A stretch of DNA of 44,805 nucleotides from a virus: IMG/VR virus record IMGVR_UViG_3300048838_001812, positions 1 to 44,805 of that record. One strand, written 5' to 3'. The notes under the pieces were generated by a model. The model was given only the letters and a program-made list of their open reading frames with translations. It ran no database searches and was not told where the DNA came from. The position numbers and the translations under genes were made by a program. Shown piece by piece: positions 6,328 through 44,805 of the stretch (position 1 is the first letter of the stretch; every line of letters begins with the position of its first letter).

Positions 6328-7838
6328 TACAGGATCAGCCCCGTCTCGCCATCGACGAGTTCGACATTGCCGAGCACAGGGAACTGCTCGATGCGCAGCT
6401 TCACGTCTGCGGGCAGGCCGTTGAGCAAGAGGTCTGCGCTGTGGTCACCAACCTTGCGCACGCCCTGAGTGTCACGAATCACGTTGAAGACGTCGCTGTA
6501 CGCGACCTCGGGACGAGGGTTGCCCTGCGCATCGCGAACCGCAAAGCCAAAGTTCACGGTCGGATTGGGCGTCCCGTCTGCCAGGCTCAGGCGGAAGAAT
6601 TCGGAGAGTCGCGCTCGCACACGGTCGCGGACGACATCAGGCCGCTGCCCGGGCAGTACGAAGATGCGTGCGCGAACGTCGATGCGCCGATAGACGGGGT
6701 CACGCACTTCGACCTGGAAAGTAAGAGTCGACGGGTAGGTCTCGGTGACCTGGCGCTTCACCAGGTTCTTGAGTGCAGGCGTTGGCAGGCCGCCGCCACG
6801 AGGGATCACGTACAGCACGCCGCTGTTCTCGCGCACGGCGGCATCCTCGTTCGAAGTGAGCATCAGAGCGCGTGCGACCTGCGGCAGCTCGAGGGCGTGG
6901 ATCTCAAAGTCTTCGCGGCACACAGATCTCGTGGTCGCACGCAAGCTCAATGGAGCGAGCAACTTCGCTGACGCAACGCTCTGCCGCTCCGCTCCGCCGG
7001 AGGCACGCTCAGGGTTGGTGACTTGCAGCGCGACGGGTGCGCCCTCGGCATCCTTTGGGACGCCGTCGAAGACGGTAAGCTGGCCTGCCTCCACGTTGCC
7101 GCGTGCGCCGCCGCCAGTTTTGTACCGCACTTCGATGGAGCCACTCGGTGCCGCGCCGTTGCGTCCATTGCCAAAGCGTAAGGTGCCTCGGTCGCTCTGG
7201 TCCACGAGCACCGCAAAGTGTCGGTCATTCGGCCCCGACGTGAGGAGGCTCTCCACCTCGATGTAGTCACCGTTGGTCGCCGCCACGCGCGCGGAGCGGT
7301 CGAGGAACGGAACGCGGTCGAGCACGAGGTCAGATCCCCGCAAGCTTCGCGCATCGAACAGTTGTCGGTGGCTCGTCGAGTGTTCGGCCGTGGTGAGCGC
7401 AAGAGACTGACCGGCGGGGATCACGACGTCATTGAGGAACTGAAAGCGAGCCGGGTTCTGCGCCTCGCGCGTGCGAACGGTACTGCCTTGAGTCAGCGTG
7501 ACGGGTGCACGAGCGGGGGAGAGAAGCCGCAGCTCGAGCTGTGCCGTCGCCGCAGTCGCGCCCGACATTCGGTAGCCAAGCATCCTCGCGAGAGCGATCA
7601 CATTCTTACGTTGCGTCGCGGTGACGAGTCGAGACTCGCGGCCCTGTTGGTCCACGTAGTACCCGAGCACGTCACCCACGAAGGCGAACATCTCCACGAG
7701 CAGGTTTCCAAAGCCCGCTACTTCATGGTCGGTCCACTCGGGGAACACGCTCTCGATGAGTGCGTAGAGCCTCGCCCGCAGCGCATCGAAGTCGCGGCTT
7801 GTGTAGTCGGGGGAAGCGGCAAGCAGTGCTGCTGTCAC
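6327..7838 (-). CDS. J: Baseplate assembly protein J
   Basis: A 503-residue baseplate wedge protein of the gpJ/Mu gp47/T4 gp6 family. The N-terminus ([27 protein letters not shown]) and the [23 protein letters not shown] segment are typical of this family, followed by [13 protein letters not shown]. The C-terminal part ([24 protein letters not shown]) and the VNFGFAVR region match as well. It overlaps the gp25 gene by ATGA at its start and the repeat protein by TAATG at its end, so the three wedge genes look translationally coupled. Confidence 0.9.
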
Positions 7839-29957: not shown

Positions 29958-30137
29958 TTTTGCAGAGATTGTCGGACTCCGAATTCACTCGTAATTCCGT
30001 GAACTTCGAAAACCGCTCTCCGCCCTCACCGTCCTAGTGTGGGCAGCTTGCACTGTCCGCACTGAAGGCTGCAACCGGCCGGTCTTAGCCGCTGCAGGGC
30101 TGAAGCAGGCCAGTTCGATCAATTCGTCGATGCTAGC

Positions 30138-30169
30138 TTGACCCCGTACCATTGTACGGGGTTTAGACT
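30138..30169 (+). promoter_or_regulatory. MerR-type mercury promoter and operator
   Basis: TTGACC at 30138-30143 and TAGACT at 30164-30169 are separated by 20 bp, longer than the normal 17 and diagnostic of a MerR-family promoter. In between is a perfect dyad, ACCCCGTAC (30141-30149), CATT, GTACGGGGT (30154-30162), similar to the mer operator core CCGTAC/GTACGG. Binding of MerR would twist the spacer on Hg(II). It drives merR itself and the downstream genes. Confidence 0.85.
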
Positions 30170-30187
30170 CTGCTGATGGAGGCCGGG

Positions 30188-30610
30188 ATGGAGAGCGTCA
30201 CGATTGGCCAGCTGGCCAGAGAGGCGGGCGTCGGGGTGGAGACCGTTCGCTTTTACGAGCGGGAGGGGCTCCTAGCTGAGCCCCCGCGCAAGCGTTCGGG
30301 CTACCGACAGTATCCACCGGAAGCGATAGCTCGTGTGCGATTCATTCGGAGAGCGAAGGATCTCGGCTTCACGTTGCGAGAGATTACTGAGCTGCTGGAG
30401 CTACGGATTGATCCGAGCAAGAGCTGTGCGGACGTACGCGCGCTCGCCAAATCCAAGATCGCAGACGTGGATGCAAAGCTTGCAGACCTTACGCGCATCA
30501 AGGCCGCGCTGGAGATCCTCGCTCGTGCGTGTCGCGGCACCGGTCCAACCAGCGAATGTCCGATCTTAGATTCCATGATTGAGGCGGAGGCTGTGCATGC
30601 CGATCGTTGA
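30188..30610 (+). CDS. merR: Hg(II)-responsive MerR regulator
   Basis: A 140-residue MerR. The N-terminal winged helix (TIGQLAREAGVGVETVRFYE) is canonical. The three mercury-binding cysteines are C80, C115 and C124, with C115 and C124 separated by eight residues as C117 and C126 are in Tn501 MerR; the order C-x8-CP is that of Hg-type MerR, not ZntR. ATG 30188 has GGAGG upstream; ATG 30176 adds four residues. It is autoregulated from the operator just upstream and starts a four-gene plus-strand operon set in the phage late region. Confidence 0.88.
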   Translation: MESVTIGQLAREAGVGVETVRFYEREGLLAEPPRKRSGYRQYPPEAIARVRFIRRAKDLGFTLREITELLELRIDPSKSCADVRALAKSKIADVDAKLADLTRIKAALEILARACRGTGPTSECPILDSMIEAEAVHADR

Positions 30611-31349
30611 TCTCGTGTACGACCCAGCGTGCCCAAACGTCGCTCTCGCTCGCGCCAACCTCATGCGCGCCTTTTCGAAGGCGCGTATTTCTGCACGCTG
30701 GGAGGAGCATAGGATAGGCGCGCCGGATGGTGAGGCACGCGTTATAGGGTTCGGCTCTCCCACCGTCTTGGTGGATGGTCGCGACGTCGCTCAAGCCGAG
30801 GCTGGGGCAGATGCGTGCTGCCGAATATATACCTCAGGGGATGTAATGGTTGGTGCTCCACCAATCGACGCGATTGCTGCCGCCCTAACAGCCGCCGTGC
30901 CCGCCGGTCCGATGATTCTCGAGAAAGCTGCGGCAAAATCACTACCTTCCAAACGCTGGAGAATTACCGCCGCTGCACTACCGGGGCTTGGCGTCGCGCT
31001 CATGCCGAAAATCGTTTGTCCGCTCTGCTGGCCCGCCTACGCGGGCGTGCTCAGCGCGACAGGGTTGACGTTCTTGATGAACGACAAGTGGCTCTTCCCG
31101 ATCATGGCGCTGTGTCTGCTCGCTGCCCTAGCCGCGCTGACTTGGAATGCCAAAGCTCGGTGGGGCTACGGTCCTGTCGTGGTCGGCACTGCCGCGGCCG
31201 TCGCCATCCTGACAGGCAGGTTTGCCCTCGACTCTGAGGTTGCGGTTTACGGGGGCGTTGGCGCGTTGATTGCCGCGAGCACCTGGAATGCGTGGCCACG
31301 TAGAGCCACGACACCCAGGTGCTCCGGATGTGTAGAAGTGAAAAACTGA
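30597..31349 (+). CDS. Thioredoxin-fold plus MerC-like mercury transporter fusion
   Basis: A 250-residue protein that overlaps merR by 14 bp. Residues 1-100 form a thioredoxin-like domain of the type found beside mer transporters (VYDPACPNVALAR, GSPTVLVDGRDV, ACCRIY). Residues about 120-236 hold four hydrophobic segments in the MerC manner, with the CPLCWP pair (141-146) inside the first, then FPIMALCLLAALAAL, VVVGTAAAVAILTG and VYGGVGALIAA. The C-terminus adds CSGC. Role: carry Hg(II) from the periplasmic binder across the inner membrane. The thioredoxin part may hand mercury to, or take it from, cytosolic thiols. Confidence 0.78.
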   Translation: MPIVDLVYDPACPNVALARANLMRAFSKARISARWEEHRIGAPDGEARVIGFGSPTVLVDGRDVAQAEAGADACCRIYTSGDVMVGAPPIDAIAAALTAAVPAGPMILEKAAAKSLPSKRWRITAAALPGLGVALMPKIVCPLCWPAYAGVLSATGLTFLMNDKWLFPIMALCLLAALAALTWNAKARWGYGPVVVGTAAAVAILTGRFALDSEVAVYGGVGALIAASTWNAWPRRATTPRCSGCVEVKN

Positions 31350-31367
31350 CAAAGACGGAGAACACTC

Positions 31368-31637
31368 ATGGCCAAGAGAATCATCGAAGTATTTAGTGCG
31401 GGTTGCTCTGCCTGCGAAGAGACTATCAACTTGGTTAACAGCATCGCTTGTCCATCATGTGAGGTGAGCATCCTCGACATGAAGGACCCAAGCGTTGCAA
31501 GCCGAGCGAAACAACTTGGCATCGGCCGCGTCCCTGCGGTGGTCGTCAATGGTAAGTTGGCGAGCTGCTGCACTGGAGGCTCCGCAGGACCTACCGAGCA
31601 GGGCCTCCGAGCTGCCGGCGTAGGAGTGACTGCATGA
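31368..31637 (+). CDS. Small thioredoxin/glutaredoxin-like mercury-operon protein
   Basis: An 89-residue thioredoxin-fold protein with GCSACEE near the N-terminus (CSAC active-site-like pair), a second pair ACPSC, a cis-proline-like VPAVVVNGKL and ASCCTGG. No signal peptide is visible, so it is cytosolic. Such small redoxins in mer operons can bind or relay Hg(II). It is preceded by an 18-bp gap with GGAGA and overlaps the next gene by ATGA. Confidence 0.65.
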   Translation: MAKRIIEVFSAGCSACEETINLVNSIACPSCEVSILDMKDPSVASRAKQLGIGRVPAVVVNGKLASCCTGGSAGPTEQGLRAAGVGVTA

Positions 31638-32014
31638 TCATGGTCCGCTGCGCGGTGATGATTGCGCTGTTGTCCGCTTCGTGCGGAGGCAGCGGCCCCG
31701 CGACAGCTCCGACGCCGCCGGCGATCGAGACCAAGGCAGCGACGGCGGAGGTAGCGGCCACCTCTCCGAGTTCATCTACTCTATCGAGCACCGTTTTCAG
31801 GATTGAGGGGATGGTGTGCGAAGGGTGCGCCCAAGCGGCTCAACAAACGTTGAAGGACGTTGCTGGTGTGCAGGATGTAACGATCGATTTTCAAAACGGC
31901 ACGGCGCGTGTGGAATATGATCCTGCTCGAACCAACGCTGACGAGTTAGCGCTCGCCGTCGAGAAGGTAGAGCGCAGCCCGGCACCTCCATTTCGCGTCA
32001 CTCGCCGCGAATAG
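31634..32014 (+). CDS. MerP-like heavy-metal-associated lipoprotein
   Basis: A 126-residue protein. Residues 1-17 are a signal with lipobox LSASC, placing it at a membrane as a lipoprotein rather than free in the periplasm like MerP. A threonine/alanine-rich linker leads to a heavy-metal-associated domain (53-126) with FRIEGMVCEGCAQAAQQTL, where C62 and C65 are the metal pair (MerP reads GMTCxxC). It should bind Hg(II) and pass it to the MerC-like transporter. It may be anchored to the outer membrane. Confidence 0.78.
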   Translation: MIMVRCAVMIALLSASCGGSGPATAPTPPAIETKAATAEVAATSPSSSTLSSTVFRIEGMVCEGCAQAAQQTLKDVAGVQDVTIDFQNGTARVEYDPARTNADELALAVEKVERSPAPPFRVTRRE

Positions 32015-32025
32015 GCCACGGCGGC

Positions 32026-32160
32026 ATGGGCATGCGCGTCTCGATCCTGCTGGCGGCGTTGGCGAGTAGCCAATCGTTGTCGTGCGACTCATCGTCAGCT
32101 CCGCTTTCAACGGCGACAGCCTACCCAATAATGCGTGCACCCACCTCGACTCTACCCTGA
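32026..32160 (+). pseudogene. Truncated lipoprotein ORF at the mer-terminase junction
   Basis: A 44-residue ORF (ATG 32026 or 32032) with signal MRVSILLAALASSQSLSC ending in a lipobox-like LSC, then only about 27 residues before a stop inside the end of the large terminase gene, antisense to it. The last 40 bp are terminase sequence. It looks like the first part of a mer-cassette lipoprotein cut off where the cassette joins phage DNA. A short genuine peptide cannot be excluded. Confidence 0.5.
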
Positions 32161-33557
32161 GGCTTGAGGTCACGCTCTTTTTGGCAGGCCATCGCGATGG
32201 CCCAGAATCGGTCCGCGTGTCCGTCACCACGCACCGTCTTGTCGGCCTCGAAGGCGACCTTGCCGGACGGGAGGACCTTACGCTTGATGCCGTGGATCTG
32301 ACCGATCAGGTCGCGTCGCCGCGGAAGCGTTACGTCGCGATGCTGCAGCAGGATCTTGAAGTCGGTGCACCAGCGCTCCTTCGAGTCGTTCGTGAAGTTC
32401 TCGCCTACGACTTGCGGATACTGACGCTCGAGATTCTCGGCGAGGTTCATGCCGATGCCAGAGCGATCGATGGAGAGGCGTGCGACGGGCAGAATCTCAA
32501 GGAGTCTCCGCAGCTCGGCTTCCTGCTCTGCGAACGGAACCTGCTCGAAGCGGCGCAGCATGCGACAAATGAACCGCGCGCCTCGCTGCTCAAAGACCGC
32601 AAGCTCCGAGTAGTCCCTGGTACGTCCGACATCGAATCCAGCAACGATGCGACCTTCGGGTGCAGGAAGGTCCGTGAAGTCGTTGTACGTCGCAAGCTCC
32701 GCGCTCGTGCACGGCAGGATGAGGTCGTATTCGTAGTAGGAGTACGAGCCGTCGACGTGCGTGACCTCGAACTCCTGCTGAAAGTCGTCGAGGGGGAGCG
32801 TCTCGAGCTGCTGCTTGATACCGTCGGTCCCGAACGCGGCGACACGCTCGACCGTGGGCATGTTCGGCGCTTCGAGCGCCGCGCGCTTCACGTCTCGGCA
32901 GAAGAAGCTGCACAGCCACCACGGCACGAGCTGCCTTGAGTGGTGGGGATACTTGCGCAGCTCCTCGGTTGCGATTTCCCAGAAGATCCCTCGACGACCG
33001 AGCGGCGTGGAGCAACCGCTGAGCTGACCGTTGGTGCGAAGGATCAGGGCGGTCGAGCCCGTGTAGACGTCCTTGTCGTTCACGTAGTGCGCGAGCTCGT
33101 CGAGGTAGATGTCACCGCGACGACCGCGCGGCGGCTTCGACGGCACGGAGATGATGCGCGAGAGCCCGCCTTTGGAGCGGTTCGACTCGAACGCGAGCTC
33201 GGTGCGCGAGTCGATGACGAGCTTCTTCTGATAGGCCGCCGGGAGCTCCTCGAAGAGCTGCCGCGCGGTCACGATCTTTTCGGTAGCGTCGGCCTGGTTG
33301 TACGAGACGAAGATGGCCGTGTAGCTGTTTCGCAGGTGACATCGCGCGAGCGCCTCGAGCGCGAACAAGAACGAGAAGCCCACCTGTCGGCTCTTCGTCA
33401 CCCAGCGAAAGCGCGTGCGGTTGTTGAGGAACGCCTGCTGGTAGCCCTCAAGGCGTACGGGCTCTGATTCCCAGCGGCACAGCCCCTCGATGAAGCCCGC
33501 CTCGGTGGCGAGCCATGCCGAGAGATCATCCTCCGTCTGTTTGACCACGACAGGCAT
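32121..33557 (-). CDS. terL: Large terminase subunit
   Basis: A 478-residue terminase. Residues about 40-70 include the ATPase P-loop (TKSRQVGFS, 54-62, a Walker A variant); [12 protein letters not shown] follows, and [10 protein letters not shown] (149-158) is Walker B with the catalytic Glu. The nuclease half begins with [18 protein letters not shown] (D309) and continues [15 protein letters not shown] (D364). The end [13 protein letters not shown] is also typical. It packages DNA into the prohead with the portal. It converges with the mer operon, sharing 40 bp of 3' end with the truncated lipoprotein, and is not next to the portal. Confidence 0.92.
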
Positions 33558-33640
33558 CGGGAGCTGCTCGACCTCCGCTCTTGGAACTTGCTTCGTCGCG
33601 CAGAAGAAGCTCTGTGTGTGTCCACCAACGGAGACGACGC

Positions 33641-34258
33641 ATGACCCACTACGCGACCGACACCGCCCGCCCGCCGAAGACCCTCACCGAGGCCGAGCAA
33701 AAGCTCGTGCTGAAGGTGACTGGAGAGCACGCCCGGGGTTTTCGCGACCACATCATCCTGGCGTTCGCGCTTGGGACTGGACTACGGGAGCACGAGATCG
33801 CGGCCCTGAACGTGGGCGACGTGTTTCACCCGGACGGCCGCCCTCGGCGGCGCTTCCCGCTGCGGGTGTTCAAGCGGAGCGCGAAGCGACCGGCCCACCA
33901 GGAGGTGATCGTCCCGGACGACCTGCTCTACAAGCTCGAGAAGCTGTGGGCCTTCAAGAGGCGACTGGCCGAGCCCACCGCACCCGAGTCGCCGCTGTTC
34001 ATCAGCCGCCACGGCAAGCGCATCGCGACGCGCACCATGCGCCACCTCTTCGCGGTCTGGCAGGAGCGCGCCGGCCTTGAGCGCCGGCTCAACTTCCACC
34101 AACTTCGTCACGCCGCTTGTACGAACCTCTACCGGCGCCACCGAGACCCGACGATGGTCCAGCGCTTCGCCCGGCACACGAGCCTCAAGACCACCTCGAT
34201 CTACATGCACCCGGACGACGAGGAGATGATGCGGGCCATTCGCCAGCTCCCCTGTTGA
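33641..34258 (+). CDS. Short tyrosine recombinase (integrase-like)
   Basis: A 205-residue tyrosine recombinase made of the catalytic domain only. Arg in TGLREHEI (R49), the HQLRH box (H153-R156), H179 in [14 protein letters not shown] and the nucleophile Y188 are in order. The N-terminal core-binding domain is missing or very short, so it is shorter than usual phage integrases (about 330-400). It stands on the plus strand between the two minus-strand terminase genes. ATG 33641 has GGAGA upstream. It may be the phage integrase, a dimer-resolution enzyme, or cargo brought with the flanking region. Confidence 0.78.
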
Positions 34259-34387
34259 CGGATCAAGCGTGGCACCCAGCCCATCCGTGGGTACCAGGGG
34301 CGCGCCTGAGGCGACTTCGGACCTACTTGCACTCGATACCGAACAAGGTCGACTGCCTGGCTCCCGCGCGGCGCCAGGGGGCCCTTT

Positions 34388-34564
34388 GTTCGGTTGTTGA
34401 TCGGTTCGCTGTTCGGTTGCTGAGCCGCCCGCCTTTCGGGTGTGTGCCGTCGCGGCGCTCCGCCGACTCCCGGCGCCCTGTTCGGTTTCCTGGAGGTCGC
34501 ATCTTGCGGGGTCAACCCCTGTGCCGCCTTGCCGTTCGGTTTCCGGCATGCGCGGCGTTCGGTT
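34388..34564 (+). repeat. Left array of GTTCGGTT boxes
   Basis: Exact GTTCGGTT boxes at 34388, 34411, 34480, 34534 and 34557; intervals are 23, 69, 54 and 23 bp. A TCGGTTCG variant lies at 34401, and the reverse form TACCGAAC at 34337. By base composition I would expect less than one GTTCGGTT per strand in the whole window. All five point the same way. Confidence 0.85.
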
Positions 34565-34640
34565 TTCGAAAATCTGCCTGTTCGCTATCGGCGGTAGGGA
34601 GTGGGCCCGCGGGCAGCAGCTTTCCGCGAAAATTCGACTA

Positions 34641-34678
34641 CCCCCCCGCCCCCCCATCGGCCCCCCGCCCCCCGCCCC
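34641..34678 (-). other. G-quadruplex-like G tract
   Basis: On the minus strand this 38-bp stretch has five runs of G (4, 6, 6, 7 and 7 residues) separated by one to five bases. That meets the usual G4 rule several times over. It lies between the two opposed repeat arrays. It would fold in the strand equivalent to late-gene transcript. Confidence 0.7.
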
Positions 34679-34776
34679 GCGTCGCTGGAGCATCAGTCGG
34701 TGTGAAGTGTGTTCCGCCGAGGACTTGTGGCCGACAGTGCTCGCTGCAGTGCCTCATGCAGGCTCGACTTCGAGGG

Positions 34777-34885
34777 AAAGCGGCAACTCGCGTCCTGAAA
34801 ACCAGGGGCCTTGCGCGCGCAAATGCTCCGTCATTTCGGTCTCGGTCTCGATCCCAGTTGCCGCTTTGAGTGAAAAGCGGCAACT
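34777..34885. repeat. AAAGCGGCAACT triple repeat with alternative hairpins
   Basis: AAAGCGGCAACT occurs at 34777-34788 and 34874-34885, and its reverse complement AGTTGCCGCTTT at 34856-34867. The 34856 and 34874 copies make a perfect 12-bp hairpin with a 6-base loop. The 34777 copy can pair with 34856 instead (67-base loop). The two pairings exclude each other. No U-run follows, so it is not a typical terminator. Confidence 0.75.
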
Positions 34886-34966
34886 CAAACTCCCGGTTCT
34901 GAAGTGGGTTGTAGCGAGTGTGATCCGCGGTCGATGGCTCTCGAGCGAGCTCGTGGGCCGACTCGA

Positions 34967-35146
34967 AACCGAACAGCGCCGACGGCGGGGTCCGAGGCAA
35001 ACCGAACGTCGTGCACGCACGTCGCTTGGACGACAAAGCGAACACACAATCCGAACACTGATCATGCGTGGGCGCGAAAACCGAGCGAAACCGAACACAG
35101 CTCGGACCTCCACGCGAGTATCGCGAAACCGAACAGCAAACCGATC
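34967..35146 (-). repeat. Right array of AACCGAAC boxes (inverted to the left array)
   Basis: Exact AACCGAAC boxes at 34967, 35000, 35089 and 35127, with one-mismatch copies at 35049, 35079 and 35139. They are the reverse complement of GTTCGGTT, so the left and right arrays face opposite ways around a core of about 400 bp. Intervals among exact copies are 33, 89 and 38 bp. Confidence 0.85.
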
Positions 35147-35319
35147 GCGACCTGAGTGTGTTGGGTTTTCGACAACTCGCTCGAAGAATTTCGGCCGGGG
35201 CTGCCATCACACCCTGGGATGCTTCCTGAGACATCGATCACCTCGCGGTGTGCCTCCGCCACCGGAATCGATTTCTCCCAGGCATGCCTCCGCTCGCTGG
35301 CATGCCCCGGGGGATCGAT

Positions 35320-36003
35320 TCACTCCAGCTCGGCGTCGATGGCCTCGTGGCCCGTGTGCATGCCTGCTGGTACACGGTCCGGCTCCAGCGAGTCCTCAAA
35401 GCACAAGGGCTCGCTCGTCCCTTCGACAAGTTGCGGCCGTACGATCTCGCCGCGCTCTTCCACCGTGAGGACCTCCACGCGGCGGATAGAGAGACGGTGA
35501 CGTTCTTGCAACTCCTCCAGCTTGATTACCGTCTGCACTTCCGATCTGGAGTCGGCCTCTCCTTGCAGGAATGCCTTCAGCCGCAATGCCGTGTTCAAGT
35601 CAGCGATCGTGTCGCATCTTACCTTGCCTGCTTCGAGAGCCTTCGCGAAGTCGAGCAGGTACTTGTCGACCAGCCGGATCTCGTCGTCGCGCGTCATGGC
35701 GATTGCCTTGGCACGGAACTCGACAATCTTCTCCTCCACTCGTGACTGCACGCGGTCCTGCGCCGCTTGTCGCCGGTGCTTGACGTTGTGCCGCCTGGCG
35801 TAGTCGGACACGACGCTGGCCGTGATACCGAAGCGATCGGCAAGCTCGCGGTACGTGGGAAACTCCACCGCAAAGGTTCCATCCGCAAGCGGGATGTTTT
35901 CTCCATGGACGAGAAGCTGATCGAGCTGATCGCGCGGAAACCGTGGACCTTCGGCTCGGGATGGGCGGCCTCCGCCCTTCTTGGGTTCGGTGGTGTCAGT
36001 CAT
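35320..36003 (-). CDS. Small terminase-like DNA-binding protein
   Basis: A 227-residue protein. Residues about 50-80 form a helix-turn-helix (YRELADRFGITASVVSDYAR) followed by a basic linker (RHNVKHRRQAAQDRV), as in small terminase subunits. A helical oligomerisation region follows (KIVEFRAKAIAMTRDDEIRL, DKYLLDFAKALEAG, LNTALRLKAFLQGEADSRSE). It lies just after the lysozyme gene and in the terS position, although the recombinase region intervenes before terL. ATG 36003 has GAGGTC upstream. Confidence 0.7.
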   Translation of the reverse strand: MTDTTEPKKGGGRPSRAEGPRFPRDQLDQLLVHGENIPLADGTFAVEFPTYRELADRFGITASVVSDYARRHNVKHRRQAAQDRVQSRVEEKIVEFRAKAIAMTRDDEIRLVDKYLLDFAKALEAGKVRCDTIADLNTALRLKAFLQGEADSRSEVQTVIKLEELQERHRLSIRRVEVLTVEERGEIVRPQLVEGTSEPLCFEDSLEPDRVPAGMHTGHEAIDAELE

Positions 36004-36499
36004 GCGGGACCTCGGCCGCGCGCGCGAGCATCCGCGCTCGCACCGCGAGAACTCGCTCTGCTCCTGGGCCAGAGGTACAGCGCCCGGTTCTGTAGAATCC
36101 CACCGCGACAGCCTCACCACCGCACTCCTTCGTGCCGAGGGCGAGGAGCCTTGCTGCTTCGAGAACTGCGACCCGCTCGCACGAAGACGCCTCGCCCTTG
36201 CACAACGTGTTAGCCGCGCGTCCCCAGCGCGAGCGCGGATGAAGCTGCAGGATACTGAACTCCCCCTGAGCTCCGACCGCCCCTGCGTTCAGGCTGGATT
36301 CGCGAAAGGCCAGCGCAGCCAGCAAGTACGCATCGACACCGTACACTTGCTCTGCGAAAAGAAAGGTTGAGGCCAGCTCTTCAGCTCGATGTTCCGCTCC
36401 CCCCGCAGCATCGCGGAAGTGTGGGGCGTAGACCGGCGTGCCATTTGGCGTGGACGCAATGGTGACCACCGCCAGGATGGCGGCAACAAGCGCTTGCAT
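35996..36499 (-). CDS. Secreted lytic transglycosylase-like endolysin
   Basis: A 167-residue protein. Residues 1-20 form a signal or signal-anchor (MQALVAAILAVVTIAS). The SLT-type core is FRESSLNAGAVGAQGEFSIL, where E67 in ESS is the catalytic glutamate, then LHPRSRWGRAAN. Cysteines at LCKGEASSC and ECGG could form disulfides. It cuts the murein glycan strand. ATG has an AGGAGGAG site. A single muralytic gene before the terminases fits a lysis role; I see no holin, spanin or second lysin nearby. Confidence 0.75.
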   Translation of the reverse strand: MQALVAAILAVVTIASTPNGTPVYAPHFRDAAGGAEHRAEELASTFLFAEQVYGVDAYLLAALAFRESSLNAGAVGAQGEFSILQLHPRSRWGRAANTLCKGEASSCERVAVLEAARLLALGTKECGGEAVAVGFYRTGRCTSGPGAERVLAVRARMLARAAEVPHD

Positions 36500-36511
36500 G
36501 CGATCTCCTCC

Positions 36512-36850
36512 TCAGCTCTTGCGCGTGGACCACCACTCGCGGACGAGATCGAGGAAGTCCTCGAACGACATCGTCACGGTGGCAGGTTCGTTATCGTTCT
36601 TGCAGATGGCGATGGGCCACAGCCCCTTACCATTGGACGCCTCGGTCGCCTGCCTGAGTGCGGCGGTCGAGTTGGTGCGCTTGCCGCGCTTGCACTCAAC
36701 CCAGAAGCAAGGGGTGACGACGTCGGGAGCTTCGGCTCCATCGCGAAACTGCATGCCTCGGCGTACGTCGTCGCCGAACACCTCGCGCATCTCACGCGCA
36801 ACGGCCCGCTCGTAGTCGCACCCCTTCCGTCGTGACGAGCGACCGCTCAC
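36512..36850 (-). CDS. Small PD-(D/E)XK nuclease
   Basis: A 112-residue protein with the nuclease signature RRGMQFRDGAEAPDVV, then FWVECKRGKR: E14, D43, E52 and K54 are in the order of the PD-(D/E)XK fold. The family includes phage Holliday-junction resolvase-like enzymes. GTG 36850 overlaps the upstream stop (GTGA) with GGAGG before it. It probably resolves branched DNA before packaging. Confidence 0.75.
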   Translation of the reverse strand: MSGRSSRRKGCDYERAVAREMREVFGDDVRRGMQFRDGAEAPDVVTPCFWVECKRGKRTNSTAALRQATEASNGKGLWPIAICKNDNEPATVTMSFEDFLDLVREWWSTRKS

Positions 36851-37416
36851 GGAACCTCCGCCGCGCTGTCCATGAAACGCACAGGAATCCCGAGCAGCTC
36901 GGCAAAGCTGACCTCGATGCGCATCCCAGGCGTGAGCTCACGGCCGTAGACGCGAACCTCGTCGCATCCACGCAGCATCTCTTGGCAGAGACGCATCGCG
37001 ATGTCGCGCTCGGTGTTTTCGTCGAGGAACTGCGAGAGCGAGAGTTGCGGCGCGACCGGCAAACCGCCTTGTTCCACGATCTCGCGGCAGATGCGCTTGA
37101 GCGCCTTGGCAGCACCGACTTGGTCCGACGAAAACCGGTGGCAGGTGTAGATCCGGGGCATGCGAGCCCGCCCCCCAGGTCGTTGCTTGTGGTGACGAAG
37201 GCGCACGACCTCGGCCGCCACGTAGTGCAGCGTGTCGATCAGCTCCTCGAGCGCCTCTTCGAAGTTGTCGCGTGGGTCGTCAAGCGGCCACGGACCGTAA
37301 TCTTCGGCTCCACGCAGCAGACGGTCCACCACGAGATGCGCGATCTCCTGCTCCACAGGTCCGAGCCCACTCACCGCCGGTTTGCTCGCACAACACTCTT
37401 GCATCGTTCCCTGCAT
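36847..37416 (-). CDS. MazG-like / nucleoside 2-deoxyribosyltransferase-like protein
   Basis: A protein of about 189 residues. The N-terminal half has the MazG-like pattern RGAEDYGPWPLDDPRDNFEE-ALEELIDTLHYV (YG-W, DDPRD, E-E-x-D). The C-terminal half, PRIYTCHRFSSDQVGAAKAL onward with YGRELTPGMRIEVSFAELLG, resembles nucleoside 2-deoxyribosyltransferase-like phage proteins. Both point to nucleotide-pool adjustment. ATG 37416 has AGGGAG upstream; ATGs at 37422 and 37434 are alternatives. Confidence 0.6.
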   Translation of the reverse strand: MQGTMQECCASKPAVSGLGPVEQEIAHLVVDRLLRGAEDYGPWPLDDPRDNFEEALEELIDTLHYVAAEVVRLRHHKQRPGGRARMPRIYTCHRFSSDQVGAAKALKRICREIVEQGGLPVAPQLSLSQFLDENTERDIAMRLCQEMLRGCDEVRVYGRELTPGMRIEVSFAELLGIPVRFMDSAAEVP

Positions 37417-37491
37417 CGCCATTGCTCCCTTCATGCTGTGACCAGGCGAGGCGCGAGGCGCGTCACCGATGTTGAAGTTCCTCTGGGGGCG

Positions 37492-38670
37492 CTACGCCGC
37501 GCGCGTCGCGAACAGCCGCGTGCTGAAGTTCTTCTCGACGACTGCCTCGAGCTCTGCTTTGAGCATGTTGAGCTTGGGCTTGCCGACCTTCGGGCCCAGG
37601 CTCTTCACCAGTGCGTCGAGGTGGCCGTTCTCGATGCCAGCGATCTTCTCGAGCAGCTCGGCTTCAGACTTGCCGGATGCAACCGCCAGCAGTTGGAGCG
37701 TCTTGGCAACGGGGAAGTCTCGACGGGCGACCTGCCCCAGGCGGTACTTCATGCCAGCGAGCACGAGCTCGCCCTTGGATTCGAGTTGCGCCTTCAGAAT
37801 CCGGTCGAGTTCGTCGCGTCGCGCGTACAGAATTTTCGCGAGGACTGCGACCTCTTCGCGCTCCCGCGCGACATTTTCGATCTCCAGCTCATCTTCGCAC
37901 ACGAACAATCTCTTGCCCAAACGCGCGCGTTCGAACTCGGGGCACTGACCTCGGAAGTCGCAGTAGGTGCAGTTGCTGTTCAGCCGCGGTGCGAAGGTCG
38001 TGGTCGCACTCTCCGTTTGTTCGCCGAGCGAGGATGCATAGGCGAGCGCGGCCTCGAGCTCCTCCTCGCTGCGCTCGGTGCGCATGCGAATGCCCTGACG
38101 CAGCATGTGGAGCTCGAGCTTCACGTGTTTAGCCCACGGCCACAGCTGCTTGGCGGCAACCGCGTACAGACTCAGCTGCAGGCTTGCGTCGACCTCTTGC
38201 TGATCGGGGAGAGCGCGAAAGGTCTTGTAGTCGCGAACCAGCACCCCATCGCCCTCGATGCGCTCGGCCCGATCGATGTATCCGAGCACGTTGAAGCGCC
38301 CGACCTGGATCTCGAACGGCTGCTCGATACCGAGCACGTCGCCAGGGTCGACCACCCCCTCGTCGCGTACGAACGTGCGCAGGATGTCAGTTCCATCGAG
38401 GTACTCCTGAGCTCCGACCATCTCGTCGGCCGTCCACTGCAGCTCGAGCAGCTCGAGCGCACGCTCCTCGGACAGGGGTCCAACCACTTCGGCCTGGACG
38501 TGCTCGCGCAGCAGCTTCTCGAGCACTGCGTGCACCGTCTTGCCGAAACGCGCGGGCATGCCTGCCTCGCTTGGGAGCTTGTCGATGTACTTGAGCTTGA
38601 AGCTCAACGGGCACTCCTCGTAGCGCGTGAGGCGCGAGTAGCTCAGGTGCTTGTTTTGGAAGTTCGTCAC
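37492..38670 (-). CDS. RecB/Cas4-family nuclease with Fe-S cysteines
   Basis: A 392-residue nuclease. Cysteine C20 (YEECPLSFKLKYIDKLP) plus C234, C237 and C243 (CTYCDFRGQC) form the Cas4/AddB-type Fe-S set. The catalytic series is H47 (GKTVHAVLE), D133 (GYIDR), then D147-x-K149 in LVRDYKT and Q165 in LQLSLYA. The enzyme should be a single-strand exonuclease used in phage recombination or replication. GTG 38670 has GGGAG upstream. A further 126 bp of open frame to 38796 is shadow. Confidence 0.82.
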   Translation of the reverse strand: MTNFQNKHLSYSRLTRYEECPLSFKLKYIDKLPSEAGMPARFGKTVHAVLEKLLREHVQAEVVGPLSEERALELLELQWTADEMVGAQEYLDGTDILRTFVRDEGVVDPGDVLGIEQPFEIQVGRFNVLGYIDRAERIEGDGVLVRDYKTFRALPDQQEVDASLQLSLYAVAAKQLWPWAKHVKLELHMLRQGIRMRTERSEEELEAALAYASSLGEQTESATTTFAPRLNSNCTYCDFRGQCPEFERARLGKRLFVCEDELEIENVAREREEVAVLAKILYARRDELDRILKAQLESKGELVLAGMKYRLGQVARRDFPVAKTLQLLAVASGKSEAELLEKIAGIENGHLDALVKSLGPKVGKPKLNMLKAELEAVVEKNFSTRLFATRAA

Positions 38671-39448
38671 TGGTTCTTGCTCCCTTCGCTTGGAATAGAG
38701 GCGTCGCCCGAAAATCGAAGACAGGAAATCGACGGTGCGTGGTGGGAGCCCCGCACGTTGGTCATCGCGCGCACAGGGGTGATCCATCGCGGCCACGCCG
38801 AGTACGGAGACCTCGGAGGAGTGCTGGCCGGCGTCGGGCTGCTTGGCCTTGAGAGGAGTAGAGGCGGGCCACGCGATTTCGGAGACTCGGAAACGGCACT
38901 ACCCGCGCGCGGAGGGTCGAAAGTCGACCCAGGTAGAACACGCGCCTGGGAGCCGGAGATCGAGATGAGTCAGATCAGTCCTGAGGGGCGCTCAACCTGG
39001 CTGAGGCGGGACCAGGGCTCATCGGCGCGACGGCCACTGCGCGGTCCCGACAGGGTCCAGGAGACTGATTGAGCGTCCGGCCGAGCAAGGAGACGTCCTC
39101 GCACCCCAACCGCTTCTACGGCGCCCTGGGCGCCTTCGGCGTGGTTCTCAGACCGGTGAGTGAGTGACCGGCATCCCAGGAAGCGTTGAGCACGCTCATG
39201 TGGGGAGGCCCGGAGCTCCGGGGTGGTAACCTAGTTCCTTAAGAGAGAGTAATTCTTATTAAGCAACTAGGTTACCACCCAATCCGAGCCAGTTGCCCAT
39301 CCGCCGTGATCCAAGCGCGCTACCCCGATGACAACCGTCGAGACTACGGCGCGGCTTCGCGGCCGCCTCTGGTCGAGCGCGATCGAGACGACATGGGAAC
39401 TACGTCTGCGTCGAACGCCTCGTGCGACACGATCACCATGCGTACGCG
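38671..39448. other. 778-bp intergenic region
   Basis: No credible gene lies between the nuclease start and the primase stop. It holds the 60-bp palindrome at 39209-39280 and a CCCGGAGCTCCGGG palindrome immediately before it. A stretch of GC-rich sequence fills 38671-39180. A promoter for the nuclease operon probably lies here, but I cannot point to a -35/-10 pair. Confidence 0.6.
39209..39280. repeat. Composite palindrome
   Basis: CCCGGAGCTCCGGG (39209-39222) is a perfect 14-bp palindrome. It runs into a long hairpin: GGGTGGTAACCTAGTT (39221-39236) pairs perfectly with AACTAGGTTACCACCC (39265-39280), extended after a C/C mismatch by CTTAA (39238-39242) and TTAAG (39259-39263), with a 16-nt loop. 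The stem is 21 paired bases with one mismatch. No U-run follows on either strand. Confidence 0.85.
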
Positions 39449-42400
39449 TTAGGCGGCGCGCAGCTTGGCGGCGAGCTCCACGCTGATGTCGCGCTCTCCG
39501 GACATGCACCGCAGAAGCGCGACGTGAGAACATCCAACCTTGCGCGCCGTTGCCCGCACCGTGCCGTGACGTGCGATGACCTCCGTCAGCTCGAACTTGT
39601 CCATCGCGCCCGACTTCGGAGGGCCCGGCACGGGACCGTGGCGAGCTTGCCGCTCCAACACGCCTTGCTCCCACGCCCGTCCAGCCGGCCGTATGGCTCC
39701 CACATGCAGCGCGCGGCTAGGTCGTGTCCTTCGGACCGTTCTCAGGCGTCCTTGGGCCTGCTCCAGCTCGTTGGCGCAGCGTTCGTTCGCGAGCGCCCGA
39801 GCGCTCTTGTTGTAGCCCGCGAAGGCAGCTTCGATCGCTACGTCACCGAGGTTCGGGCGAGGGTCGCCGAGCGTGATCAAGGCGTCCACATGCTGCAGGT
39901 CGTTGCGACCACGGACGGCGCCGTAGTGCGCGAACAGGATCTCACCCTGCCAGGCTTGCATGATGTGACCGAGGCGTTCGCGAGCGCGAGCCAGGGCCTC
40001 CGGCGTCTGCCTGAGCGCTGCCCATTCCTTTTCGACCTCGCGGTCGTTTGGGGCACGCGCAGCGCGAAGCGCCACTTCGACAGCCTTCATCGTGATGATG
40101 GCGAGCGAGCGCGTGCTCGGATCTTCTCCGGCCCAGTGCATGGCGTCACTCACGGCACGTACGAGCGGGTCGTTTACCAGAAGCTGCTTGCCGTCGAACC
40201 AGTCGGTGCGTTTGGCCGACGTCATTCGCAGATGCGAGCGATCCACGTTCGCGGCGTCGCGCGCCTCGAGCACGTGTACGACGGGAGGATAGCTCACCAA
40301 GGCCTCGTACATGGGCAAGTGCGAGGCTGCGTTAGCGTCGAGTATGGCGACGGCACCCGATTCGCGCAGCACCCGACGCAGCGGCTCGTTTTGGAACGTG
40401 AAGCTGGCGCAGCGAGGGCCCTCCTCATCGACCTTCACACAGACTTTGGAATCGGTGGTCAGTACGTGCAGGAGTGTCTTCAAAAGCCGCGACGCACGGC
40501 CGATACGCCTGGATGCTTGGAGATTGCCCCGGAGCCTATGCATCGCAACCCGGTGATCTAGCGGAGGCACGTCACAGATGCGGCCATCCGGATCAATCGC
40601 GACAGCCTTGGCGAACGCGACGACGTCGTCGCTCTCGACGCCCGTCTGCACGCGCGCAAAGCGCAGGTCCTCGGCCGAGACGTGTGAACCGTGGGACGCG
40701 ACGATGTCCTGTACGCTTCGGACTGTGGTCGTGTCCTTCTCCTCGCGCAGCCACGCTTCGAAGGCATCGAGCGCGGGCCGCATGCCGGCCGCGAAGCGCC
40801 ACACGAAGTCGCTCAGGCTGACACGCGTGACCTCAAAGTCCTCTGCCGTGAAGGTCTCCGTGACGAGCACAGCGGCGTGCTCATCGATGAAGGTAAGATC
40901 TGACGGACCCACTTTCTTCATGAGCGCATGGGGAGCGATCAGGATCCGTGCGTTGCTCGGTCCCTCCGCTCCCTCGCGCGCGGGACAGGAGTCGTAGTGC
41001 TCACAACGGCCCAGATTCTGGCCCTCACAGAGCACGTGCTGCATCGACTGTCCGCCCGCCACCAGGTGCTGCGCCACGTCGTGATAGTGACAGACAGGCG
41101 TTCCGTCGCTGTTGCGGAGCGAGAGCGGACCAAACAGGCGTCGTACCGTGGCTCCTTGCCCCTGAATGTGCGCTTGGAGCTCGCGACCAATCTCGTGCTT
41201 ATCTACGAAGATCGTAGTTTTCGAGTGCGGTGGGGCGCGAAGACCCCGCGCGTCAGGTGACTTGTACGGGGTCAGGGCGCGCTTGATTGCGACGTCGGTC
41301 GCGGTGCGTGTCTTCGCGGTTCCAGGCGGCGAGGCGATCAGCGTCAGGCGTGCGTCGAGGTTCTCAAGCAGGGAAGCAATCTGCGTAGCGACATCGTCCG
41401 CGGTGGGGAGGTCCGGAGCAGCGATGGAGAGTCGCCATCGGTGGAGGTCGTCTTCGGTGTTGATCGCAAGGCTCGCGTCGAGCGCGATCGCGACCGCGTG
41501 GTGCTCGGCTGCGAGCTTGGTGAAGCCGACAGTGGAAAGAGCTGCGTAGTGCCGCTCGAGCGTGGTCGCGGCAGACGCGCGACGGTCTTCGATGCGCGTG
41601 TCGGCCCCGGTCTCGCGCGCGATGGCTTCGCAAATGGCGACGAGGCGACTCGGGGGCGCCCCCTTGTCGAGCAGTGCTCCCGCGAGGACGAGAAACAGCG
41701 AGTGCCACTCAGCACTTACCTGCTTCACTGCGTGGGCGATGACGACGGCCCGCCTGGCCCACAGTTCGCCGGGATCGGAGATGGGGTCGAAGCGTACGGG
41801 TCGAGGAGTCTGATCCCGCCGCGAGCGCTTACCTTGTTCGGAAGAACCGGCTTTGGGCGCCGGCGGCTCCGGCACGATGGGTCGCATGTCGAAGAGGTCG
41901 AAGATGGGCTCGTACCTCACGAGCGCGCCGCTCTCGGGATCGCGGCGAGTGACTCGCGCCGCTCGCCATACCCGCCCGGAGCGATCGCAGCTCTTGTCGA
42001 GCGTAAGGCCTGCTTCCTTCAGCTGCGCGAGCCAGAGCTGAAAGTAGTCATTGGCCTCGGCAAGTCGCAGGGGAGTGGCAAGAGGCTGGATGATGCGCGC
42101 GCCGCGTAACGTTGTATGAATGCCGGCGGTGCTGAGCATAGGGATCTTTTTCCACTCCACCATGCTCGCCCGTGGGTCACGGTTCAGTTTCTTCCAGCTC
42201 TCGTGTGGCTCGTTGTCGTAGTCAGCGAAGAACACGCTGACGTAGAGCTCCTTGGGGTAGATGGGCACGCCAGCGTTATTGACACGATGGATACGCGAGC
42301 CATCTGCTGGCGCGTACATCGTCATCATGGCGTCGGTATCGAACTCCGTGTCGAGCGCCTCCTTTAGCGTCATGACCTTCATGCGCGGGCGAGCGTCGTG

Positions 42401-42454
42401 CTGCGGACCATTCCAGCCACGAAACTCGAGCGTAGGCATGACGCCGACGAACAC
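39449..42454 (-). CDS. Primase-polymerase / helicase fusion
   Basis: A 1001-residue replication protein. The N-terminus carries an archaeo-eukaryotic primase pattern: VSVFFADYDNE (D78-x-D80), STAGIHTTLRG (H113) and DKSCDRSGRVWRAAR (D157). Residues about 370 onward are a helicase: SPPGTAKT (375-382) is the P-loop and LTFIDEHA the Walker B. A four-cysteine group (VCHYHD...HVLCEGQNLGRCEHYDSC) between them suggests a Zn or Fe-S site. The C-terminus ends with a helix-turn-helix-like segment (HGTVRATARKVGCSHVALLR). It should prime and unwind phage DNA. GTG 42454 is used; ATG 42439 is possible. Confidence 0.78.
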   Translation of the reverse strand: MFVGVMPTLEFRGWNGPQHDARPRMKVMTLKEALDTEFDTDAMMTMYAPADGSRIHRVNNAGVPIYPKELYVSVFFADYDNEPHESWKKLNRDPRASMVEWKKIPMLSTAGIHTTLRGARIIQPLATPLRLAEANDYFQLWLAQLKEAGLTLDKSCDRSGRVWRAARVTRRDPESGALVRYEPIFDLFDMRPIVPEPPAPKAGSSEQGKRSRRDQTPRPVRFDPISDPGELWARRAVVIAHAVKQVSAEWHSLFLVLAGALLDKGAPPSRLVAICEAIARETGADTRIEDRRASAATTLERHYAALSTVGFTKLAAEHHAVAIALDASLAINTEDDLHRWRLSIAAPDLPTADDVATQIASLLENLDARLTLIASPPGTAKTRTATDVAIKRALTPYKSPDARGLRAPPHSKTTIFVDKHEIGRELQAHIQGQGATVRRLFGPLSLRNSDGTPVCHYHDVAQHLVAGGQSMQHVLCEGQNLGRCEHYDSCPAREGAEGPSNARILIAPHALMKKVGPSDLTFIDEHAAVLVTETFTAEDFEVTRVSLSDFVWRFAAGMRPALDAFEAWLREEKDTTTVRSVQDIVASHGSHVSAEDLRFARVQTGVESDDVVAFAKAVAIDPDGRICDVPPLDHRVAMHRLRGNLQASRRIGRASRLLKTLLHVLTTDSKVCVKVDEEGPRCASFTFQNEPLRRVLRESGAVAILDANAASHLPMYEALVSYPPVVHVLEARDAANVDRSHLRMTSAKRTDWFDGKQLLVNDPLVRAVSDAMHWAGEDPSTRSLAIITMKAVEVALRAARAPNDREVEKEWAALRQTPEALARARERLGHIMQAWQGEILFAHYGAVRGRNDLQHVDALITLGDPRPNLGDVAIEAAFAGYNKSARALANERCANELEQAQGRLRTVRRTRPSRALHVGAIRPAGRAWEQGVLERQARHGPVPGPPKSGAMDKFELTEVIARHGTVRATARKVGCSHVALLRCMSGERDISVELAAKLRAA

Positions 42455-42624
42455 GATGAGTGAACTCCAGAGAAAAGGCGACCACTCGCAGCGCGTCGTG
42501 GGCGCCTGCTTGCGGGGGGACGTTCAGTTGAGGGCGGTTACGGTGACGAGAGCGCGGGGGCGGTTGGCGCGATATGCGCAGCCGTCGCGTGGTCGCAAAG
42601 GTCAGACAGTGAAATCCAATTGCA

Positions 42625-44208
42625 TCACGGATTGTCCGGTTGCCCAACTCGGCTCGACGGCGCCTTCTCCCCAAGCTCGGCGCGATAGCGAACGCGCGCC
42701 CATCGCGTGCTCGGCTCGTTCGCAAGTAAGGTCTCGAAGTACTTTTGCTTCTGCTGGTCGGTCTTCGGCCGCCACGTGGGAAGCGCGAAGTCCATGGGAG
42801 GTTCCTCGCCGAAGCGGTCTCGATATTTGTGAAGGATCCAGCGGGGATTCAGGCCGTGCCTCGTCGCCACGCCGCACAAGCGCTTCCAGTGCGCCATGCG
42901 CAGCTCAGGGCTGTTCTCGTTGACCTCAACGAGCTCGCCCTCGGCCTCGGTCGGCGCTTCGCGCTCGGCGGCGAGGGTGGTGTCGCACTCCGGGCAAGTG
43001 CGCGTCTGGATAGGCAGAAGCGCGCTGCACCCCGGACACTCGCGCAACGGAGGTGGTGCAGCGTTGTTTCGCTCGCGCTTGGGCTTTGGTTTGAGCGAGT
43101 ACTCGCGGTCGTCTTGCGGAAGACCGTGCTCGAGCACGCACCCGGCGTGATCAAGGATGATCGCGGGTTGCCACTGGTACGGGCGCAGGATGCGCCCTGC
43201 TTGCTGCAGGTACAGCCCAAGCGACTTGGTGGGGCGTGCGAGGATCGCGCACTTCACGCGCGGGATGTCGAGGCCTTCAGCTAGGCAGTTCACCGAGGAG
43301 ACGACCTGAGTATCGCCGGAGGCGAGGCGCTTTAGGATCGCGTCACGCACGGGGGTCTCCGTATTCCCGTCGAGGTGCTCGACTGTGATGCCTGCATCGC
43401 GAAAGCGCTCGGTGATGTGCTGCGAGTGCGCCACGCTGGTGGCGAATACGATCGTTGCAACGCCATCCGCGTGTTTACGCCAGTGGGTGACGAGGTTGCC
43501 GATGAGTGGCGAGCGGTCCATCGCATCGGCAAGCTCGCGCTCGTCGTAGTCACCACGGCGGACCTTCACTTGCGATAAGTCGGGGCGCTGGTCAGGAGGC
43601 ACCGTGAAGCAGCGTGGCTCCACGAGTGCGCCCTGCGCGATGAGCTCCTTCATGGTCGCAACGACCAGGAGATCGGAATAGACGTCACCGAGCGGTGTGC
43701 CATCGGCGCGAAACGGAGTGGCGGTCAGGCCCACTTTGACGGCGCCTGCGTAGTAAGCATGGATGGCGCGCACGCCTGCCGAAGTGGAGCGATGTGCCTC
43801 GTCGCATATGACGAGATCGGCGGCAGGAAGTCGTCGGTAGCGCAAGGTGTCGATGCTTGCGATTTGCACTGCGGCGCCAGGGCACCAGCGCGTGTCCGTA
43901 GCCATGATCACCCCGAGCTGCTTTCGGTCGATGCCCGCGGCAACGAATCGTTCATACGCTTGGTTGATGAGCTCGCGTCGATGAGCAAGAAACAGCACGC
44001 GCATGCCAGCGTCGAGCGCGCAGCGCACGACCCCCGCAGCAACCGAGGTCTTTCCAGACCCCGTCGACGAACAGAGCAAGATTGCAAGACTGCCCTCGCG
44101 AATACGCCCTGAAAGAGCCGCAAGAGCCCGGAGTTGGTAGTCGCGAAGGACAAAGCTGCCCAGCACTGCCGAGCGGGCGCCCAGCAGCGTGACGAATGCA
44201 TCACGCAT
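42625..44208 (-). CDS. SF2 helicase, RadD-like
   Basis: A 527-residue DEAD-like helicase. Motif I is SSTGSGKT (47-54), motif II DEAH (136-139), then TATPFRADG, and motif VI QQAGRILRP. A CPGC...CPEC zinc site follows the helicase core, as in RadD-type proteins, and an extra C-terminal region (MAHWKRLCGVATRHGLNPRW; LANEPSTRWARVRYRAELG) resembles the usual C-terminal arm. It is a branch-migration or replication-restart helicase. ATG 44208 is preferred over TTG 44211. Confidence 0.83.
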   Translation of the reverse strand: MRDAFVTLLGARSAVLGSFVLRDYQLRALAALSGRIREGSLAILLCSSTGSGKTSVAAGVVRCALDAGMRVLFLAHRRELINQAYERFVAAGIDRKQLGVIMATDTRWCPGAAVQIASIDTLRYRRLPAADLVICDEAHRSTSAGVRAIHAYYAGAVKVGLTATPFRADGTPLGDVYSDLLVVATMKELIAQGALVEPRCFTVPPDQRPDLSQVKVRRGDYDERELADAMDRSPLIGNLVTHWRKHADGVATIVFATSVAHSQHITERFRDAGITVEHLDGNTETPVRDAILKRLASGDTQVVSSVNCLAEGLDIPRVKCAILARPTKSLGLYLQQAGRILRPYQWQPAIILDHAGCVLEHGLPQDDREYSLKPKPKRERNNAAPPPLRECPGCSALLPIQTRTCPECDTTLAAEREAPTEAEGELVEVNENSPELRMAHWKRLCGVATRHGLNPRWILHKYRDRFGEEPPMDFALPTWRPKTDQQKQKYFETLLANEPSTRWARVRYRAELGEKAPSSRVGQPDNP

Positions 44209-44262
44209 CAACGAACCTTTCTGTGATCTGACTCGGTGGCCGAGGTACGGTGAGGAGGTCAG

Positions 44263-44805
44263 TTACGTCGATTCGCTCCGTGTAGGGGCGCGATGGAACT
44301 GCGTGACTTCCGCGCCCGGAAACACCGCGCACATCGCCGCGATGGTCGCGGCATCCCGAAATGTCATCTCGTTACGCTCCGCGCCTGTGTAAGCGGGCAC
44401 GAGCCACAGCTCGCCTATGGCGTCAGCCCGGACGCACAGCTCGATCCCAAGCGCCTCGAGCGCCCTGATCTGGTCCTCAGTGATCGGACGCGCGAGCGAT
44501 GGCGCGGTCTGCGCGGGCAAGGGGATGGCCGACGTGCGGGAGCGCTTGCTCTCCCCGGAAGTGCTCGACGGCTGCACGCGGACGACCTGCCCAAACAGGT
44601 CCGTCGACGCTGCCGGCACCTGCGGAGGGGAAGCCATCGGAGTAGATTGCTTCGTTGCGCGTTGAGGTGGGTTCTTACGAAGCCACTCGGTGCAGAGGAA
44701 CGTGTCCTCGCGCGCGCACCCGCCGCCGTCGAGGTAGCTCCGGCATCGCCTGGTGCCGGCGATGGCGACGTAGTGGGGGCACTCGATGGAGGAGTCACGC
44801 AACAC
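44263..44805 (-). CDS. Cysteine-cluster protein, partial at the window edge
   Basis: At least 180 residues; the frame may continue past the window, since the first codon is the final GTG. The N-terminus has four to five cysteines (CPHYVAIAGTRRCRSYLDGG, then CAREDTFLC), a probable Zn or Fe-S site. The middle is low-complexity proline/serine, and the C-terminus has a domain starting ARPITEDQIRALEALGIELC and ending DAATIAAMCAVFPGAEVTQF. I do not recognise the family. Its place before the helicase suggests replication or regulation. Confidence 0.55.
   Translation of the reverse strand: MLRDSSIECPHYVAIAGTRRCRSYLDGGGCAREDTFLCTEWLRKNPPQRATKQSTPMASPPQVPAASTDLFGQVVRVQPSSTSGESKRSRTSAIPLPAQTAPSLARPITEDQIRALEALGIELCVRADAIGELWLVPAYTGAERNEMTFRDAATIAAMCAVFPGAEVTQFHRAPTRSEST

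Follow-up and report, generated by a model that had tools for sequence, protein, structure and literature searches.

The window, by which we mean the whole 44,805-nt stretch of viral DNA analysed here, contains a convergent gap into which the 3' ends of the genes on both sides point. On the left is Rec (33641-34258, plus strand), a tyrosine recombinase of 205 aa with a catalytic domain only (Pfam Phage_integrase, residues 14-194), and upstream of it, on the minus strand, lies the gene for the terminase large subunit TerL (32121-33557), identified by domain and PHROG annotation. On the right is a minus-strand gene for an HTH protein (35320-36003). A sequence-only reading of this DNA had placed the region next to a recombinase and between two terminase genes. 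The recombinase and TerL are confirmed as neighbours, whereas the second gene belongs to a PHROG of unknown function, and we call its product TerS-like by its position and architecture only. Between the portal gene and TerL (30176-32014) the window also carries MerR-, MerC- and HMA-domain genes, an apparent mercury-type cargo.

The closest solved relatives of Rec, by sequence and by fold, are XerA and XerD. Its scores lie below the NCBIfam equivalog cut-offs (82 bits against 220 for XerA and 78 against 335 for XerC), and it matches the tyrosine-type DNA invertases of NCBIfam weakly, far below the family cut-offs. Residues R49, K78, H153, R156 and Y188 are invariant in 17 sequences, and the III-position His (FARH) is replaced by Gln in the Myxococcus/Corallococcus clade. 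Rec has no N-terminal core-binding domain: its 205 aa are all catalytic and the model consists of the catalytic fold alone. Several Rec genes or fragments stand close together on one contig in L039 and in L040/L136. The HTH of the TerS-like protein is confident in the AlphaFold model, with which a fold search returned no significant match, a Bacillus cereus phage protein being among the best of the non-significant ones. Most Myxococcus/Corallococcus TerS-like genes encode a tandem HTH pair (L020, L010, L028), and the gene in the window encodes a single one.

The gap holds an array of short boxes. The 8-mer GTTCGGTT occurs as an exact copy 10 times in the window, nine of these within 750 bp (34388-35134); shuffled sequence holds a mean of 1.23 per window and none of 100 shuffles reached 10. 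Five copies are on the plus strand, at 34388-34395 (box 1), 34411-34418 (box 2, 23 bp on from box 1), 34480-34487 (box 3), 34534-34541 (box 4) and 34557-34564 (box 5). Four are on the minus strand, at 34967-34974 (right box 1, AACCGAAC), 35000-35007 (right box 2), 35089-35096 (right box 3) and 35127-35134 (right box 4), and the tenth is an outlier at 712. Right box 4, the last exact box, is also the border of the module by comparison with relatives. Degenerate boxes occur as well, among them two right boxes on the minus strand, GTTCGCTT (35036-35043) and GCTCGGTT (35079-35086). The inverted arrays of five right-facing and four left-facing exact boxes previously described are thus present as stated, whereas the left block is not purely right-facing: it has a reversed box, CGATACCGAACAAG, at its left edge (34334-34347, minus strand; the counterpart in relatives is CACTTGCA..CGAAACCGAAC). 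The right boxes of the window lie within the gap; those of L013, L016, L017, L118 and L126 overlap the 3' end of the TerS-like coding sequence.

Between the two blocks lie a C-run element, GCGAAAATTCGACTACCCCCCC (34626-34647, plus strand), whose first run is 84 bp on from box 5 and whose motif and spacing are shared with relatives, and three copies of AAAGCGGCAACT, on the plus strand at 34777, on the minus strand at 34856 and on the plus strand at 34874. Copies 2 and 3 are inverted 12-bp half-sites which flank 6 bp and together make up a 30-bp core, AGTTGCCGCTTT-GAGTGA-AAAGCGGCAACT (34856-34885, plus strand). Copy 1, as GGAAAGCGGCAACTCG (34775-34790, plus strand), is an accessory half-site at a distance from the core that is fixed in relatives. 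The 12-6-12 arrangement in the window has the form of a dif-like site, with inverted half-sites of ~11-13 bp around a centre of 6-8 bp.

We gathered relatives of Rec from viral contigs, GTDB contigs and whole genomes, and they are found in 26 of the 96 genomes of the Myxococcus AM003 family and in 30 of the 195 of its phylum. Relatives with the same layout are Myxococcota prophages and metagenomic phages, and the order portal-TerL-Rec-array-TerS-exonuclease is kept in most of those with enough contig; a recognisable layout is missing in a few loci (L124, L128, L130, L136). The boxes of the first two relatives stand at the same place and read GTTCACTT, not GTTCGGTT. Elsewhere the variants GTTCATTT, GCTCAGTT, GCTCACTT, GCTCAATT and GTCCAATT occur, with the general form G[TC][TC]C[AG]NTT[TC]. 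Box counts are above those of dinucleotide shuffles in most lineages, many boxes are spaced 22-23 bp apart, and GTTCACTT is concentrated in the arrays, which hold 14 of its 17 copies in a 280-kb region of G045 and six of its seven in G075. Far from being absent or scattered in related phages, the outcome that the sequence-only reading had named as fatal to the array, the boxes occupy the homologous position in most relatives, written in lineage-specific letters.

The inner parts of the array behave in the same way. In 15 divergent regions that were read, and in the scan that followed, 12 bp separate GCCRC from NNGGC across lineages, equivalent to 12-bp half-sites with a 6-bp centre, and the right core partner stands out with a score of 5.1, other offsets scoring -28.5 +/- 4.3. 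The extra half-site, GGAAAGCGGC, is found 84-86 bp upstream of the core in 31 of 32 loci, a set dominated by one Myxococcus/Corallococcus clade and comprising ~15-20 independent lineages; in the sole exception, L127, the script that matched copy 1 to the core probably chose a wrong pair. A further 19 viral Rec loci were held out and scored against a matrix derived from the earlier ones: nine show no half-site pair, and all 10 with a detectable pair have it at 84-86 bp, a range in which none of 570 shuffles fell. The outer letters of the three half-sites agree more within loci than between them (169 matches where 126 would be expected, with 0 of 20,000 permutations as high). L222 has a full palindrome at copy 1 instead of at the core, and L118 has a copy-1 partner as well, so that either subsite can be the full one. 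The C-run, with the consensus GAAAAT..GAC..CCCCCC, mostly lies 80-84 bp after the last left box, and this distance is 78-88 bp in 25 of the 32 loci against 0-7 with shifted windows. Parts and spacings stay fixed across relatives while the letters change, and because the letters diverge the exact core pattern has no match in the viral contigs.

The sequence-only reading had seen in these inner parts a G-quadruplex tract and a hairpin that switches between two pairings. The former is the C-run, which is on the plus strand of the window so that the G-rich strand is the minus one; relatives usually retain a single run of at least five C, and a quadruplex is not a conserved feature. Copies 2 and 3 are non-complementary in several lineages (L118, L126, L222), so that the hairpin is not what is conserved either, and we rejected both as functional forms. 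An RNA element was likewise dropped, as Rfam gave no match in 30000-44805. Judged by sequence comparison, what looked like a hairpin is the core site of a tyrosine recombinase (12-6-12 bp) with a third half-site upstream.

Some relatives of the module lie in units without terminase genes beside Rec. In two of these, L023 and L024, homology to the standard loci begins 41-170 bp upstream of Rec and ends at about the last right box, and on this comparison Rec and its site persist in such units as a module of ~1.7 kb. Wadjet and type I restriction-modification genes are among its neighbours there. A second repeat, AAGTCCGGCA/TGCCGGACTT, is present in 7-11 copies downstream of the array in L023, L024 and L029, all without terminase genes beside Rec. 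Defence genes (Wadjet, type I restriction-modification, RtcR-CARF) adjoin the module in L024, L084 (G066) and L147 (G045).

In the complete chromosomes G036, G075 and G045, phage genes lie to either side of an uncut site. G045, the best-resolved case, contains tandem units of ~103, 95 and 52 kb, marked by repeats of a tRNA-Asn 3' end near 3002658, 3054440, 3149314 and 3252696, with the arrays in their interior, and the tRNA-Asn repeat of G066 recurs 79.3 kb apart, giving a 79-kb unit. A ~126-bp tandem repeat lies near a unit border (G045:C1:3049354-3051696). Each G045 unit has a large serine recombinase (domain content checked for one), which we infer to be its integrase. The units of G045 and G066 match the description of Mx-alpha, the polyploid prophage of Myxococcus xanthus, in passages of PMC6070905 and PMC5562445, where it appears as units of ~80-100 kb in tandem with phage genes, and where neither Rec nor its site is described; a passage of PMC5562445 also has prophages of this type carrying Myxococcus kin-discrimination toxins. 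Units of ~80-100 kb, often in tandem and at one chromosomal place, are seen in these relatives and not in the window contig. The genes of the window are syntenic with the Mx-alpha-like relatives, and to Mx-alpha itself the window is a distant relative (~35-74% protein identity).

When the halves of the array were searched for separately they were found together almost everywhere besides G045:3025593, the one clean hybrid among ~31 sites. Here the array match begins exactly at the left arm of the core, and the right array half (L162/G045:C1:3025593-3026096) is joined to an RtcR-CARF gene whose stop codon lies within the left half-site. A phylogenetic incongruence scan rises broadly around the core and reaches significance in other places as well; as a breakpoint test for a crossover at the core it was set aside, the signal being broad and unspecific to that place. 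The hybrid and the incongruence rise suggest that recombination may take place at the core. In L214, after position 6615, a left array half that has boxes and C-run but neither copy 1 nor core runs into serine-recombinase-like sequence.

We consider it fairly probable that Rec acts on the adjacent array as its DNA substrate, and that the two form a self-contained ~1.7-kb resolution or circularisation module of Mx-alpha-related myxobacterial prophages. A composite Rec site is favoured because of the fixed spacings, the Xer-like neighbour, the module borders and the interior position within prophages. Rec would occupy, and cut, the inverted half-sites of the core, and would also occupy the accessory half-site 85 bp upstream. 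The box arms, probably bound by the adjacent TerS-like HTH protein, would fold the DNA into an ordered complex and thereby control which cores are allowed to recombine. Such a complex would probably serve for multimer resolution or circularisation of the phage genome, a role like that of Cre/lox in P1 or of Xer at sites with accessory sequences, and not for chromosomal integration. Weighing against this reading are the single clean hybrid, the broad incongruence signal, the nine held-out loci without a half-site pair, the few loci without a recognisable layout, the Gln in Recs of the Myxococcus/Corallococcus clade, and the few independent contrasts behind box binding by the TerS-like protein, whose fold search gave nothing significant. 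The sequence-only reading was right that a functional array is present and had a recombination site on its list, whereas the last rank that it gave to recombination is not upheld. If correct, our reading would give Mx-alpha-type prophages, with their toxins and here defence systems too, a specific and testable DNA-rearrangement device. It would also provide a rare complex recombination site that keeps its geometry in many lineages although its letters are rewritten from one to the next, from which rules of protein-DNA co-evolution might be read.

The part assigned to the TerS-like protein comes from its recognition helix, in which Asp or Glu is found only with GG boxes (two lineages), Pro goes with the GCTC clade, and Arg or Lys go with GTCC/GCCC boxes. 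Only two of the 164 columns of the TerS-like protein set the GG lineages apart, and one of these lies in the recognition helix; Rec has one such column. We treat as a lead that this protein probably binds the boxes, the contrasts being few and partly clade-bound. The tracking of box type by helix residues, with its few independent contrasts, also suits the main rival reading, a pac/cos packaging site at which TerS would bind the boxes and TerL would cut the symmetric core, leaving Rec with a separate job. The site does sit between the TerS-like gene and TerL, and its 12-bp symmetric spacing is reminiscent of lambda cosN. However, Rec remains with the site in units without terminase genes beside it, we found no intact site that clearly lacks Rec (seeming cases are at contig ends), and half-sites around a 6-bp centre look recombinase-like. 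We consider a packaging site possible, though on balance unlikely; a composite site may also serve both packaging and recombination.

Rec and the composite site might instead be a cassette-exchange port of polyploid prophages, the core swapping islands of defence or other cargo against the block of virion genes between tandem units. The hints are that defence genes adjoin the module in units lacking terminase genes and that the RtcR hybrid is joined exactly at the core. We think this reading distinctly unlikely; if true, it would generate helper units and cargo units.

A replication origin or partition site, the first choice of the sequence-only reading, seems improbable. As an origin, the array would be a bidirectional start and its boxes would act as iterons on which a phage initiator binds. 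The boxes do come in arrays at one place per element, many of them 22-23 bp apart, replication-type genes are present in the element, and the Myxococcus box GTGAAC is like the iterons of P4. Iterons would leave the 12-bp core spacing and the 85-bp half-site spacing unexplained, however, and these are the geometry of a recombinase site. Rec stays beside the array whichever genes flank it, the flanking genes point in, and the boxes are nearly confined to the array. The GC-skew minimum that had been proposed as a check is not found as anything special to the site, which is a weak and uninformative test.

A classical attP, at which Rec would integrate the prophage and the boxes would serve as arm sites, is very improbable and largely refuted. 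A recombinase gene adjoining a core with arm-like boxes is the usual attP layout, but an attP would be split into attL and attR upon integration, and the site is intact inside the integrated prophages of G036, G075 and G045. The tRNA-Asn repeats that bound the units of G045 and G066, the interior arrays and the separate serine recombinase of the G045 units imply that the array is not the prophage attachment site. Least credible is an operator array for a phage repressor, which clustered boxes and a nearby HTH protein might suggest: both neighbouring genes converge on the array with their 3' ends, leaving no adjoining gene start to be controlled, and boxes are nearly absent from the rest of the element.

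The module has partial likenesses in several known systems. Invertases of the FimB/FimE type are, like Rec, proteins of ~200 aa with the catalytic domain only; no invertible segment is seen at the Rec locus, and Rec is far below the cut-offs of that family. The IRS site of TnpI (Tn4430, Tn5401) has a core of inverted motifs with adjacent extra recombinase-binding motifs, and so resembles the present site in having additional motifs beside an inverted-motif core. It differs in its transposon context, its other spacing and its lack of box arms of a second motif. Cre/loxP of P1 is likewise a phage-borne recombinase with a short symmetric site, and lox, which lies near pac, circularises and resolves the P1 genome. 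Yet lox, at 34 bp, is a simple site with neither arms nor an accessory half-site, and Cre has both domains, unlike Rec. Compared with Xer systems, Rec has no core-binding domain, the site has in addition a half-site at a distance of 85 bp and a pair of box arms, and the whole is phage-borne. Xer/dif, Xer at accessory-sequence sites (cer, psi) and XerS/difSL likewise combine inverted half-sites around 6 bp with the Xer fold, published dif sites having 11-bp half-sites and a 6-bp centre, and the gene lies beside its site as in XerS/difSL, where difSL directly adjoins xerS as one module (PMC5357621).
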